Shown piece by piece: positions 34,535 to 37,446 of a DNA stretch of 41,318 bases; positions within the stretch are counted from its first letter, which is position 1, and the number at the start of each line of letters is the position of its first letter. The stretch covers positions 1 to 41,318 of the forward strand of contig JAHJJD010000114.1 of assembly GCA_018822845.1 (NCBI GenBank), read 5' to 3'. Under the pieces are notes generated by a model that made no database searches, had not been told where the DNA came from, and was given only the letters and a program-made list of their open reading frames with translations. The stretch is from Gammaproteobacteria bacterium. GTDB lineage: Bacteria > Pseudomonadota > Gammaproteobacteria > Thiotrichales > Thiotrichaceae. The position numbers and the translations under genes are program-made.

Positions 34535-34563
34535 AAAAAAAAAGGCGGATCCGTAGACCCGCC
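34535..34563 (-). terminator. Orphan rho-independent terminator in fbp orientation
   Basis: On the minus strand, GGCGG...CCGCC (34544-34563; 5 GC pairs extended by GU, UA and CG pairs) is followed by nine T (34543-34535). No minus-strand gene lies to its right before hemF, 3 kb away, so it ends either a small RNA or a premature fbp leader transcript. A TATAAT occurs on the minus strand about 20 bp ahead of the hairpin, without a clear -35. Confidence 0.7.
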
Positions 34564-34634
34564 ATACTTGCGAGGGAATATTATAACTTTTAAGAATTAG
34601 TAGAGTGTGTAGTGTGTTAGTACTGGTTGGTCGC

Positions 34635-34640
34635 TATAAT
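34635..34640 (+). promoter_or_regulatory. Possible -10 box for the ECF sigma gene
   Basis: TATAAT in the plus orientation, 105 bp before the ECF start. No good -35 hexamer stands at the standard distance, so the assignment is weak. Confidence 0.25.
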
Positions 34641-34651
34641 TCTTGCACTGG

Positions 34652-34667
34652 TTCAAAAATATTTGAA
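34652..34667. promoter_or_regulatory. 16-bp perfect palindrome upstream of ECF sigma gene
   Basis: TTCAAA-AATA-TTTGAA, placed 12 bp downstream of a TATAAT and 78 bp before the ECF start. This position would suit an operator, but no regulator is known. Confidence 0.4.
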
Positions 34668-34744
34668 GAAAGTAGTGTTTTAGGTAATTTTTCAAAAAAA
34701 CATGTTTGTTTAGAACCAAATGAACGGTGAGAGCGACACACAGA

Positions 34745-35356
34745 ATGGAAGGTGATCTACAAGGTAACCGCTTCCGCGAGGAGCTGGTCGGTAAGTTGTC
34801 GGATGAGGTACTGCTGGAGCGGATCTGCGCAGGCGATCAACAGGCGTTCAGTCAACTGTACCTGCGTTACCAACCCCGGCTGGTGAGGCATTGCGCGCGC
34901 GTGTTGCGTGATGATCTTGCGCAGGCAGCTGATCTTGTGGATGAGGCCATGTTTGATGTGTGGCGGTCGGCTAAAAATTTTGCAGGAAGGTCGAAAGCGT
35001 CTACCTGGATTTATTCCATCGCCCGTAACAAGGTGATTTCATGGTTGCGCAAAACCTCGGAAGTGACACTGGAAGACGAGTCGCTTCTGGATGCCTTGAT
35101 TGATCCAGCCGCCAACCCCCAAGAGGAATTGGCAATGGATGATATGAAGCAGCAATTGTTTCGCCTGATGGATCAGTTGACAGAAGAGCATCGGGAAGTA
35201 CTGAAGCTGACTTATTTCGAAGACAAGTCAGTCAAGGAAGTTGCTGAGATGCTGGCCATTTCCGAGAGCACGGTAAAGACACGCATGTTTTATGCCCGTA
35301 AACGGATGGGGCAACTGCTTGAAAAAGCAGGTATCACCAGTTTTGAGATGTTATGA
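34745..35356 (+). CDS. ECF-type RNA polymerase sigma factor
   Basis: A 203-residue sigma-70 family factor lacking regions 1 and 3. Region 2 (about 25-95) has QAFSQLYLRYQPRLVRHCAR, DLVDEAMFDVWRSAKNF and TWIYSIARNKVISWLRK. Region 4 (about 135-190) has LTEEHREVLKLTYFEDKSVK, VAEMLAISESTVKTRMFYAR. The ATG at 34745 is used; a GTG at 34727 would add six residues, and GGTGAG nearby supports either start poorly. It lies 22 bp upstream of the anti-sigma gene, so they are probably cotranscribed with the S8 protease gene. The promoter specificity is unknown. Confidence 0.92.
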   Translation: MEGDLQGNRFREELVGKLSDEVLLERICAGDQQAFSQLYLRYQPRLVRHCARVLRDDLAQAADLVDEAMFDVWRSAKNFAGRSKASTWIYSIARNKVISWLRKTSEVTLEDESLLDALIDPAANPQEELAMDDMKQQLFRLMDQLTEEHREVLKLTYFEDKSVKEVAEMLAISESTVKTRMFYARKRMGQLLEKAGITSFEML

Positions 35357-35378
35357 GACGGTAACTGAGTAAAAAATT

Positions 35379-36134
35379 ATGAGTCAATACCAGCAGGGTG
35401 ACCCTGTGAATGAAGCGCGATTGCTCATTCCCTGGTATATCACCGGAAAATTGAGCGAACCAGAGCGGAAGCTGGTGGCGTCGATGCTGGAGCAGCACCC
35501 GGATTTGAAAGAAGACTACTTGCGTGAATTGCGGACGGTCGAGCTTATCCGTTCCAATGATAGCCTGTTGCAATTGACGGCTGTTGACACCACCCAGCAG
35601 CGGCTGGACAAGCTGCTGAAACGCATCCAGCGGGAAGAAGAAACCGGGGCGGCTGGCGTAACACCGTCAGCAATGGAGCCTCCCCCAGGAAAAAAGACTG
35701 TTGCCGCCGCTGGATGGGCAGCGTTTTTTCGCGGCTTGCTGCCATCCATGGAATGGTTGACGCCAGCTAATGCTGTGCTTGCCAGTCTGTTGTTGCTCCA
35801 GGCCGGGTTTGCAGGCTGGTTTGCGCATTCGTCCCTGACGGAAAGTGCCCAGGAAAAGGCTTATCTCACCGCCGAGTATGTTGACGGGTCTAACGCGGTT
35901 CCTGTTGTCAATGGCATGGTATTACTGGTCGAGTTCAATGAGAATGCCCAGATACGGCAGGTGCGTGAATTCCTCAATAAATGGAATGCGCGGATGCTGG
36001 ATGGCCCTGACGCCAACAATCTGTTCAAGATCGAAATCAAGGACGTATCAGCTTCCGACCAACGTTCGGATGCAGTCCTGCTGCAAATGCAGCAGGACAC
36101 TTCGGTAATAAGTTTTGTTGGCCGGAAATTCTGA
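35379..36134 (+). CDS. Membrane anti-sigma factor with protease-propeptide-like periplasmic domain
   Basis: 251 residues. Residues 1-110 form a cytoplasmic helical region (NEARLLIPWYITGKLSEPER, LKEDYLRELRTVELIR) like the anti-sigma domain of ECF partners; no HxxxCxxC zinc motif is present. One membrane helix spans about 129-149. The periplasmic part at about 162-251 shows the pattern of subtilisin propeptides (fervidolysin-type prodomains): MVLLVEFNENAQIRQVREFL, NARMLDGPDANNLFKIEI, then LLQMQQDTSVISFV. It presumably holds the ECF factor at the membrane until a signal acts on this domain. The S8 protease encoded next would be in the same compartment. The propeptide likeness is by pattern, not by alignment. 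Confidence 0.8.
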   Translation: MSQYQQGDPVNEARLLIPWYITGKLSEPERKLVASMLEQHPDLKEDYLRELRTVELIRSNDSLLQLTAVDTTQQRLDKLLKRIQREEETGAAGVTPSAMEPPPGKKTVAAAGWAAFFRGLLPSMEWLTPANAVLASLLLLQAGFAGWFAHSSLTESAQEKAYLTAEYVDGSNAVPVVNGMVLLVEFNENAQIRQVREFLNKWNARMLDGPDANNLFKIEIKDVSASDQRSDAVLLQMQQDTSVISFVGRKF

Positions 36135-36201
36135 CTCCGGCCTGATGTTTTCCGCAAAATGTAGTTATACTGTGCTTTGGCACAACAACTCCCTGAATAT
36201 C

Positions 36202-37446
36202 ATGTATTTGATTCCTTTTCTCCGCTTGCTTCCCTTATTTTTCCTGTTGGCACTGACTGGCTGTAGCGCTACACCGGTTGAATACAAGGTCGTCAATAAA
36301 ACGACGGATAATGAAGCCTGCCAGATTAGTGAGCAAATTTGTGTCGAGACGCATGTTTTCCGCAAGATTGATTATGAAAAGGATGAAATGCTCATCACCT
36401 ATGACAGCAACAAGCCGGGTGAGGTTGCTGACGGGGTGTTAAAGAAGTACAAGTTGCGCGCCAAACGCAGTGATGAGCTGGGTTCCATCAATACCACCAT
36501 GATTACTGCTGCTACCAATGGGCAGGATCCTTACGACCTGATGCGTTCCATCCAGCGGAATGAGCAAGAGGTGGATGCGCACACCAGCAGTTTCTATACG
36601 TCTGCGGCAGCGCCGTTGGGTGTGCTGGGGACTTATCCGCTGGGCTTGACGGGGATCGGTGCCGCCCGTGAGCATACCAGCGGCAATGGTGTGGTGATTG
36701 GCATGATCGATACACCCATCGACATTGACCATGAATCGCTGCGCTCTTCCATCCAGCGTTTCGAGCTGGTGCCTGCCGGTGATGAACGCAACCGTCTGCA
36801 CGGCACTGAGGTGGCAGGAGTACTGATCAGCCGCAACCCGCGTATAGGTGTTGCGCCAGAGGCTTCACTGGTCGCGATCAGCGCTTTCAGCACCAACCCG
36901 CAAAATCCCGATGAACGCCGTAGCAACTCCGGTCTGGTTGCGCGTGCGCTGGAGATTGCCATGCGCAATAACGTCAGTGTCCTCAACCTGAGCTTTGCAG
37001 GCAAACCAGACCCGCTTGTTGACCGGCTGGTGCAGGCTGCTATCCAGCAGGGGATTACGGTCGTTGCCTCTGCAGGGAATGGTGGGCCGGGTGCACAACC
37101 GGCTTACCCTGCCGCCCTGCCGGGTGTGATTGCGGTGACGGCGGTGGATAAGGGTGAAAAGGTTTTCAGTAATGCCAATCGGGGTAGGTACATTGATCTT
37201 GCTGCACCAGGGGTTGGGATACTGACAACTGCACCGCGCGGGGCGTTCCACGTTTCCAGCGGCACTTCGCTGGCAACGGCACATGTCAGCGGTGCCATCG
37301 CCTTGCTGAAATCCATGAGCCCCGCTTTCAGTCCGGAATTGCTGAACCACACGGCCATTGATCTCGGGGCACCAGGGCGTGACGATGATTACGGCTATGG
37401 ATTGATCAGTCTCGGGCGGGCAATGGGCGCGCTTGGGTCACGTTAA
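36202..37446 (+). CDS. Subtilisin-like (S8) serine protease lipoprotein
   Basis: A 414-residue protein. Signal MYLIPFLRLLPLFFLLALTG-C has lipobox LTGC with Ser at +2, predicting outer-membrane lipidation. Residues of about 55-135 (DEMLITYDSNKPGEVADGVL, NTTMITAATNG, LMRSIQRNEQEV) look like an N-terminal propeptide domain. The catalytic domain follows: D170 (VIGMIDTPIDIDH), H200 (LHGTEVAGVL), N293 (ASAGNGGPG) and S356 (SSGTSLATAHVSG), all intact. The ATG at 36202 is chosen because the lipobox then falls at residue 21; upstream codons overlap the anti-sigma gene. It is the third gene of the ECF cluster and probably a periplasmic or surface protease linked to that signal. Confidence 0.92.
   Translation: MYLIPFLRLLPLFFLLALTGCSATPVEYKVVNKTTDNEACQISEQICVETHVFRKIDYEKDEMLITYDSNKPGEVADGVLKKYKLRAKRSDELGSINTTMITAATNGQDPYDLMRSIQRNEQEVDAHTSSFYTSAAAPLGVLGTYPLGLTGIGAAREHTSGNGVVIGMIDTPIDIDHESLRSSIQRFELVPAGDERNRLHGTEVAGVLISRNPRIGVAPEASLVAISAFSTNPQNPDERRSNSGLVARALEIAMRNNVSVLNLSFAGKPDPLVDRLVQAAIQQGITVVASAGNGGPGAQPAYPAALPGVIAVTAVDKGEKVFSNANRGRYIDLAAPGVGILTTAPRGAFHVSSGTSLATAHVSGAIALLKSMSPAFSPELLNHTAIDLGAPGRDDDYGYGLISLGRAMGALGSR

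Follow-up and report, generated by a model that had tools for sequence, protein, structure and literature searches.

A predicted subtilisin-propeptide-like ectodomain on the anti-sigma factor of an ECF sigma module adjoining an S8 protease gene

Serine proteases linked to extracytoplasmic function (ECF) sigma factors have been described in Sinorhizobium meliloti. In the extract of that account available, rpoE6 lies divergent from the serine protease gene SMa0142, which RpoE6 activates, and this sigma/serine-protease layout is widely conserved in group ECF26, whose promoter consensus is -35 GGAATA / -10 GT (PMC6180224). There, the anti-sigma C-terminal domains are compared to RsiW, and the mechanism is described as hypothetical. 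That ECF sigma factors can be linked to S8 proteases is therefore already known. In the available portions of two further papers, anti-sigma factors are sorted by their sigma-binding domain and attached domains (PMC7406223), and subtilases are mentioned in connection with sigma factors that have no anti-sigma factor (PMC8999054); the words 'subtilisin' and 'propeptide' are absent from the main text of PMC7406223 as available. Here, a three-gene ECF sigma module is analysed in a stretch of 41,318 nucleotides (hereafter the window), contig JAHJJD010000114.1 of the Gammaproteobacteria bacterium assembly GCA_018822845.1 (Thiotrichaceae), in which the anti-sigma factor ends in a periplasmic domain resembling the propeptides of subtilisin-type (S8) proteases. 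Full-text searches of open-licence papers (titles and starts of abstracts, supplements excluded) found no description of a propeptide-like anti-sigma ectodomain; as far as these searches reach, this domain is what is new, S8-linked ECF26 sigma factors being already in print.

The preferred reading, to which a probability of roughly 0.4 is given, is that this periplasmic sensor is a homologue of subtilisin propeptides, on which the matured partner S8 protease docks, clipping the ectodomain or its linker and so freeing the sigma factor. With much the same probability, the module may represent a Pseudomonadota-wide class of regulated proteolysis: an anti-sigma factor would have acquired the propeptide of a zymogen, and a single dedicated subtilisin would report on itself, its binding to or cutting of the tethered propeptide freeing the sigma factor. 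In Thiothrix the clearest targets of that sigma factor would be its own operon and a short RNA transcribed divergently. For many anti-sigma ectodomains we know of no ligand. Here the fold itself would name a probable one, whose gene is next door, and the input of a widespread sigma module thereby becomes directly testable. If the preferred reading is true, a subtilisin would join the site-1 proteases and a propeptide would have been reused as a sensor.

The preliminary description of the locus, made from the sequence alone, had pointed to an S8-propeptide pattern in the periplasmic part of the anti-sigma factor and proposed comparing its fold with S8 propeptides. A model of the last 92 residues, made from an alignment of 36 rows, reached a mean predicted local distance difference test score (pLDDT) of 79.7, with 80-93 in the blocks covering residues 21-90, and the ectodomain proper (about the last 72 residues) was predicted as strand-helix-strand-strand-helix-strand (beta-alpha-beta-beta-alpha-beta), a propeptide-like fold. 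Ranks 1-6 of the Foldseek search of PDB were occupied by chains of the S8 protease EpiP, the aligned part of which is not shown in the Foldseek output, and by the subtilisin BPN' prosegment 1spb_P, matched with a template modelling (TM) score of 0.63 by target length. Further rows comprised prosubtilisins, the subtilisin propeptide complex 2z56_B, the furin-bound PC1/3 prodomain and PCSK9 chain P, mixed with unrelated proteins; S8 prodomain or proprotease chains made up 15 of the 50 rows listed.

Homology was also sought at the sequence level. When a profile of 58 ectodomains was searched against 121 S8 reading frames, with reversed sequences as decoys, the best 12 rows all lay N-terminal to the S8 catalytic domain; two S8 prodomains were significant (L223, 9.7e-5; L237, 2.2e-4), a third stood at 0.034 and the best reversed decoy at 1.7. 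The commonest Pfam family match was PF22148 (fervidolysin prodomain), found in 7 of 36 rows and in 7 of 24 rows, with L094 and L100 present in both sets, and its cut-off was passed by L088 and L142 (each 27 versus 21 bits). In a profile-profile comparison of the ectodomain with partner prodomains, the score of 20.4 lay above all 40 column shuffles (maximum 12.4). A profile run against PDB sequences returned five rows, E 0.061 or worse, none of them convincing. From the predicted fold, the family profile matches, the Pfam matches in relatives and the shuffled control, we conclude that the ectodomain is a divergent S8-prodomain homologue, the pattern noticed earlier being more than chance. Among the alignments used, A1 leaves out L034 (ambiguous residues) and L042 (near copy of L041); A2 (25 rows) is without L034, L036-L038 and L042; A3 (18 rows) and A4 (36 rows) are without the divergent members L048, L052, L053, L055-L060 and L062, A3 further without L037, L041 and L043, and A4 further without L096, L102 and L105-L107; and A5 (24 rows) is without L143, L157, L159-L162 and L164-L169. 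In locus L154, two separate places match the ectodomain profile, perhaps as a tandem copy.

The module was earlier described as three closely spaced genes, encoding an ECF sigma factor, a one-helix membrane anti-sigma factor and an S8 protease, and this architecture is borne out: the three genes are co-directional on the + strand of the window and form a compact operon. Both sigma regions 2 and 4 were matched in the sigma factor (Pfam Sigma70_r2, 1.4e-16; Sigma70_r4_2, 6.8e-15), and with its one-helix neighbour it fits the pairing of an ECF sigma factor with a class I membrane anti-sigma factor. The anti-sigma factor carries a single hydrophobic stretch (residues 132-150), whose mean hydropathy over 19 residues is 1.51, below 73 of 77 rows; a hydrophobic segment of at least 1.6 mean hydropathy precedes the domain in 73 of the 77 scored rows, which include truncated proteins and two second frames, and the linker from membrane to domain has a median of 16 residues across these 77. 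NCBIfam anti-sigma models matched the window protein weakly, all below cut-off (best 1.8e-5), and zf-HC2 was matched in 12 of 31 aligned anti-sigma rows, the window's row not among them.

Sigma factor, anti-sigma factor and S8 protease stand side by side in each of the 15 genus relatives. Queried with the anti-sigma protein, 31 of 57 genomes gave a match, including the window genome and every one of these relatives. With C-terminal domain profiles, matches came from 24 of 369 genomes at class level and from 35 of 398 at phylum level; both tallies count the window genome, some genomes known beforehand and a few spurious matches. A scan of genome contigs with the anti-sigma protein as query found nothing. 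The 85 loci fetched and the window gave 86 scored, of which 83 were kept; L105 (SPOR-type protein), L107 (no domain) and L157 (implausible frame) were dropped as non-anti-sigma. An S8 gene lies within 1.5 kb at 70 of the 83 accepted anti-sigma loci, so that the co-occurrence count proposed with the first description finds the protease gene conserved beside the sigma pair. It was scored downstream on the same strand at 66 loci, upstream of sigma in L138 and L139 and divergent in L146; in L101 it was scored upstream through an overlapping frame and is actually downstream. Loci L051, L098 and L106 end near a contig edge. Eight loci (L048, L052, L053, L055, L057, L059, L060, L062) were accepted via the full-length anti-sigma profile, with no ectodomain match at 0.001. 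Among the 75 loci matching the ectodomain profile, many of which were also used to build it, 63 have an S8 neighbour, in three gene orders; the locus set is not independent, many members coming from one genus or family.

The background rate was taken from Peptidase_S8 matches at E 1e-10 in 26 chosen genomes (about 123 Mb by rounded sizes), picked to span the matches and including six without an adjacent S8 gene (G347, G125, G608, G704, G629, G761); G247 and G335, also without S8 at the locus, were left out. The 62 rows found correspond to 61 genes, one being split in two. An S8 gene would be expected in roughly 0.3% of random 6-kb neighbourhoods, and was observed in 20 of the 26. The partner is the sole S8 gene found in seven of these genomes (G000, G014, G379, G754, G428, G701, G528), the window genome among them, and across the 16 genus genomes, with 1-7 S8 rows each, it is the only S8 gene common to all.

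The partner protease itself has the catalytic domain of peptidase S8. In the window it starts with Met at 36202, carries the lipobox LTGC and matches Peptidase_S8 at 4.1e-38 over residues 161-400. Asp170, His200, Asn293 and Ser356 do not vary across the 25 aligned rows (window plus 24 relatives). In a wider alignment of 40 partner frames, 39 retain the catalytic Asp, His and Ser, and the remaining one (L090) is truncated at a contig end. The oxyanion Asn column is kept in 32 of the 40; it differs in L093, L095, L096, L097, L142, L149, L153 and L158, perhaps through misalignment. The full-length model (pLDDT 88.7) has unprocessed pro-subtilisin E and pro-Tk-subtilisin as its best fold matches, with fervidolysin at rank 9, and the propeptide-like region that had been seen before the catalytic domain corresponds in this model to the protease's own prodomain. 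The preliminary description also called the protease lipidated. As a prediction this holds for the window and for the genus, where the lipobox is present in 11 of 11 rows tested, and it was found in L048 and doubtfully in L055; it does not hold for the other 12 of the 25 rows, all outside the genus, which lack a lipobox, and lipidation is for this reason not essential. A Ser follows the lipobox Cys in 10 of the 11 genus rows, and Ser at this position is the usual outer-membrane signal.

Several observations nevertheless weigh against the preferred reading. No Foldseek row reaches E 0.001, the best being 0.026 (probability 1.00), and the window ectodomain alone gives no Pfam prodomain match. 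L223 and L237 are not partner proteases, and the best partner prodomain rows in that search stand at 0.22 and 0.59. The profile-profile comparison that exceeded its shuffles has an E of 0.0051 and a probability of only 7%; shallower alignments gave no significant profile-profile match between ectodomain and partner prodomain, and profile A4 run against 40 partner S8 frames gave nothing below 0.077, its best stretch lying in the catalytic part. A strict lock-and-key relation is strained by the prodomain that the partner protease already has (residues 58-134 in the model) and by anti-sigma factors that keep the domain without any S8 gene: S8 is absent at 10 of the 80 loci with enough flank (L056, L062, L094, L100, L103, L104, L152, L154, L155, L156), and no S8 gene was found anywhere in G347, G125 and G608. 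A C14 (caspase-type) gene lies downstream in place of S8 in L155, and about 2 kb away in L154. The S. meliloti anti-sigma frame is matched neither by profile A4 (threshold 0.01) nor by the wide profile (threshold 1). Finally, the window anti-sigma protein has 0 residues past the profile end, and the 77 rows mostly have -2 to 6, with a maximum of 14.

The C14-associated anti-sigma factors carry the propeptide-like domain (L155:3153-3956, L154:450-2183). Two orphan anti-sigma-like proteins (L056:5940-6716, L062:3083-3829) have no sigma or S8 neighbour, and their genomes, G024 and G035, also hold complete triads (L059 and L058, respectively).

The short C terminus bears on how the ectodomain might work. 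Subtilisin-type propeptides inhibit through the tail following the last strand, and S8 proteases, once mature, have a dedicated surface to which the propeptide fold binds, and as a rule degrade their own propeptide when maturation is complete. Since the anti-sigma chain mostly ends at or near the last strand, the active-site tail is missing, and the ectodomain looks more like a core for docking than a full inhibitor; for the same reason, and because mature S8 proteases digest propeptides, cutting is preferred to inhibition. In the proposed mechanism, the operon's S8 protease, once matured, would dock on the anti-sigma ectodomain and would make a cut either there or in the short linker between ectodomain and membrane. 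An RseP-type site-2 protease, for which an M50 gene in the window genome (1.2e-68) is a candidate, would complete removal of the anti-sigma factor, and the freed sigma factor would transcribe its own operon and with it further protease. What the module senses would be how much of one dedicated envelope protease there is, where it sits or how active it is. Binding, cleavage and the direction of the signal are steps that we infer.

Alternatively, the S8 protease may be a mere output of the sigma regulon, the ectodomain sensing something else and its fold being inherited or coincidental. Such an arrangement would resemble S. meliloti, where, in the extract of PMC6180224, the serine protease gene SMa0142 is divergent from rpoE6 and is activated by RpoE6 (ECF26), and where the anti-sigma factor is without the domain; divergent S8 and sigma genes without a detected domain likewise occur at nine of 80 kept loci (L202, L203, L205-L209, L217, L220), and propeptide-like domains occur without an S8 gene. 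This explanation is regarded as rather unlikely, though it deserves serious consideration: S8 adjacency reaches 63 of 75 among domain-bearing loci, in several gene orders, and homology to S8 prodomains would be left as an unexplained coincidence. The nine divergent loci are mostly from Alphaproteobacteria, with a layout like that of S. meliloti RpoE6.

The propeptide-like fold and the S8 linkage would also fit if the ectodomain bound the partner protease uncut, as a membrane-tethered propeptide in trans. Free protease would then keep the anti-sigma factor folded and the sigma factor off, and once the protease was engaged by damaged proteins or lost, the ectodomain would become unstable and be degraded. 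Subtilisin propeptides on their own fold poorly when the protease is absent, and because the protease's own prodomain serves maturation, a second copy would be free for signalling. The tail that plugs the active site is, however, largely missing, which makes classic propeptide inhibition unlikely, and the probability of this alternative is accordingly put low. That the ectodomain is some other small alpha-beta module of similar topology, for instance a SPOR-type peptidoglycan-binding domain, is very improbable: one profile match at 0.00235 was read as a SPOR-type protein (L105) and one row gave a SPOR match at 0.045, but no SPOR entry stands among the 50 fold matches listed, two rows pass the PF22148 cut-off and the profile finds S8 prodomains.

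Returning to docking and cutting, the feedback that the preferred reading supposes is addressed by the promoters. Upstream of sigma lies the element GAACC-N16-CGAC, ending 7 bases before ATG 34745 in the window. This ATG is preferred to GTG 34727 as the sigma start codon, because of the position of the element and because the alignment starts there (query residue 7) in 13 of 15 genus relatives, L034 and L040 aligning from residue 1; the mRNA of the sigma operon would be near-leaderless. The operon-side element was found before sigma in 14 of 15 genus relatives (absent in L045) and a divergent copy in all 15. The strict form TWGAACC-N16-CGAC occurs four times in the window genome, two of the occurrences being this promoter pair, and 15 of the 16 genus genomes carry the strict pair at this locus, G008 having the divergent copy only. 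Because motif totals per genome do not exceed those of a control pattern (5 in the window genome), the promoter evidence consists in placement and not in count. Judging by the promoter pattern, the sigma module is probably autoregulated; by the strict motif its clearest targets would be its own operon and the divergent transcript, and looser sites would escape. No ECF26-type promoter (GGAATA-N15-18-GT) lies before the window sigma gene; a lone GGAATA at about -170 is without a matching GT at the right spacing, and an ECF26 promoter was rejected, GAACC-N16-CGAC standing there instead.

Between sigma and fbp, a candidate short RNA of about 89 bases has a promoter, a conserved 5' part for which no structure was predicted, and a strong terminator. 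At 12 of the 16 genus loci it measures 84-89 bases and at the other four 144-182, and a TATAAT-like string within it makes a second promoter possible. A search of Rfam gave no family at the gathering score, the best two matches having E 0.22 and 0.95. The triad is flanked by fbp-like and hemF-like genes, named from reading their translations. The features of the locus are collected in Table 1.

Table 1. Positions in the window of the sigma module, its predicted domains and its candidate promoters.
Feature	Position	Strand	Basis
ECF sigma factor	34745..35356	+	Pfam, alignment of genus relatives
One-helix membrane anti-sigma factor, 251 aa	35379..36134	+	Reading frame, weak NCBIfam matches
Anti-sigma transmembrane stretch, residues 132-150	35772..35828	+	Hydropathy
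S8-prodomain-like periplasmic domain, residues 180-251, extreme C terminus of anti-sigma	35916..36131	+	Predicted fold, profiles
S8 (subtilisin-type) protease, lipobox LTGC, predicted lipoprotein	36202..37446	+	Pfam, alignment, model
Protease's own predicted prodomain, residues 58-134	36373..36603	+	Model secondary structure; fold matches are unprocessed pro-subtilisins
Peptidase_S8 catalytic domain, residues 161-400	36682..37401	+	Pfam
Predicted sigma-operon promoter TAGAACC-N16-CGAC	34711..34737	+	Conserved motif, genus relatives
Divergent promoter copy TTGAACC-N16-CGAC	34630..34656	-	Conserved motif, genus relatives
Candidate short sigma-dependent transcript, intrinsic terminator at end; start inferred	34535..34623	-	

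Compared with known systems, the ectodomain shares its predicted fold and a partial sequence homology with subtilisin propeptides and with free-standing I9 inhibitors, of which POIA1 is an example. Unlike these, it is carried as the ectodomain at the C terminus of an anti-sigma factor, and in most cases the chain stops at the last strand, with no active-site tail. The S. meliloti RpoE6/EcfR6/SMa0142 locus, in which the genes were identified by layout in an unannotated record and the anti-sigma factor is taken to be EcfR6, resembles the window in having an ECF sigma factor, a one-helix anti-sigma factor with a periplasmic domain and an adjacent S8 protease; SMa0142 belongs to the same subfamily as the window partner (3.2e-73 to the partner-S8 profile). 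Its protease gene is divergent, whereas that of the window is co-directional and in the same operon, and RpoE6 matches the window sigma profile only remotely (1.8e-19). The idea that the triad replaces the RseA system was rejected, RseA_N being found elsewhere in all 16 genus genomes. As in the RpoE-RseA-DegS-RseP cascade, a membrane anti-sigma factor would be expected to be removed by site-1 and site-2 proteolysis, and an M50 gene of the RseP kind is present in the genome. In contrast to that cascade, the candidate protease of the window is an S8 enzyme encoded in the operon itself, and the sensor is propeptide-like.

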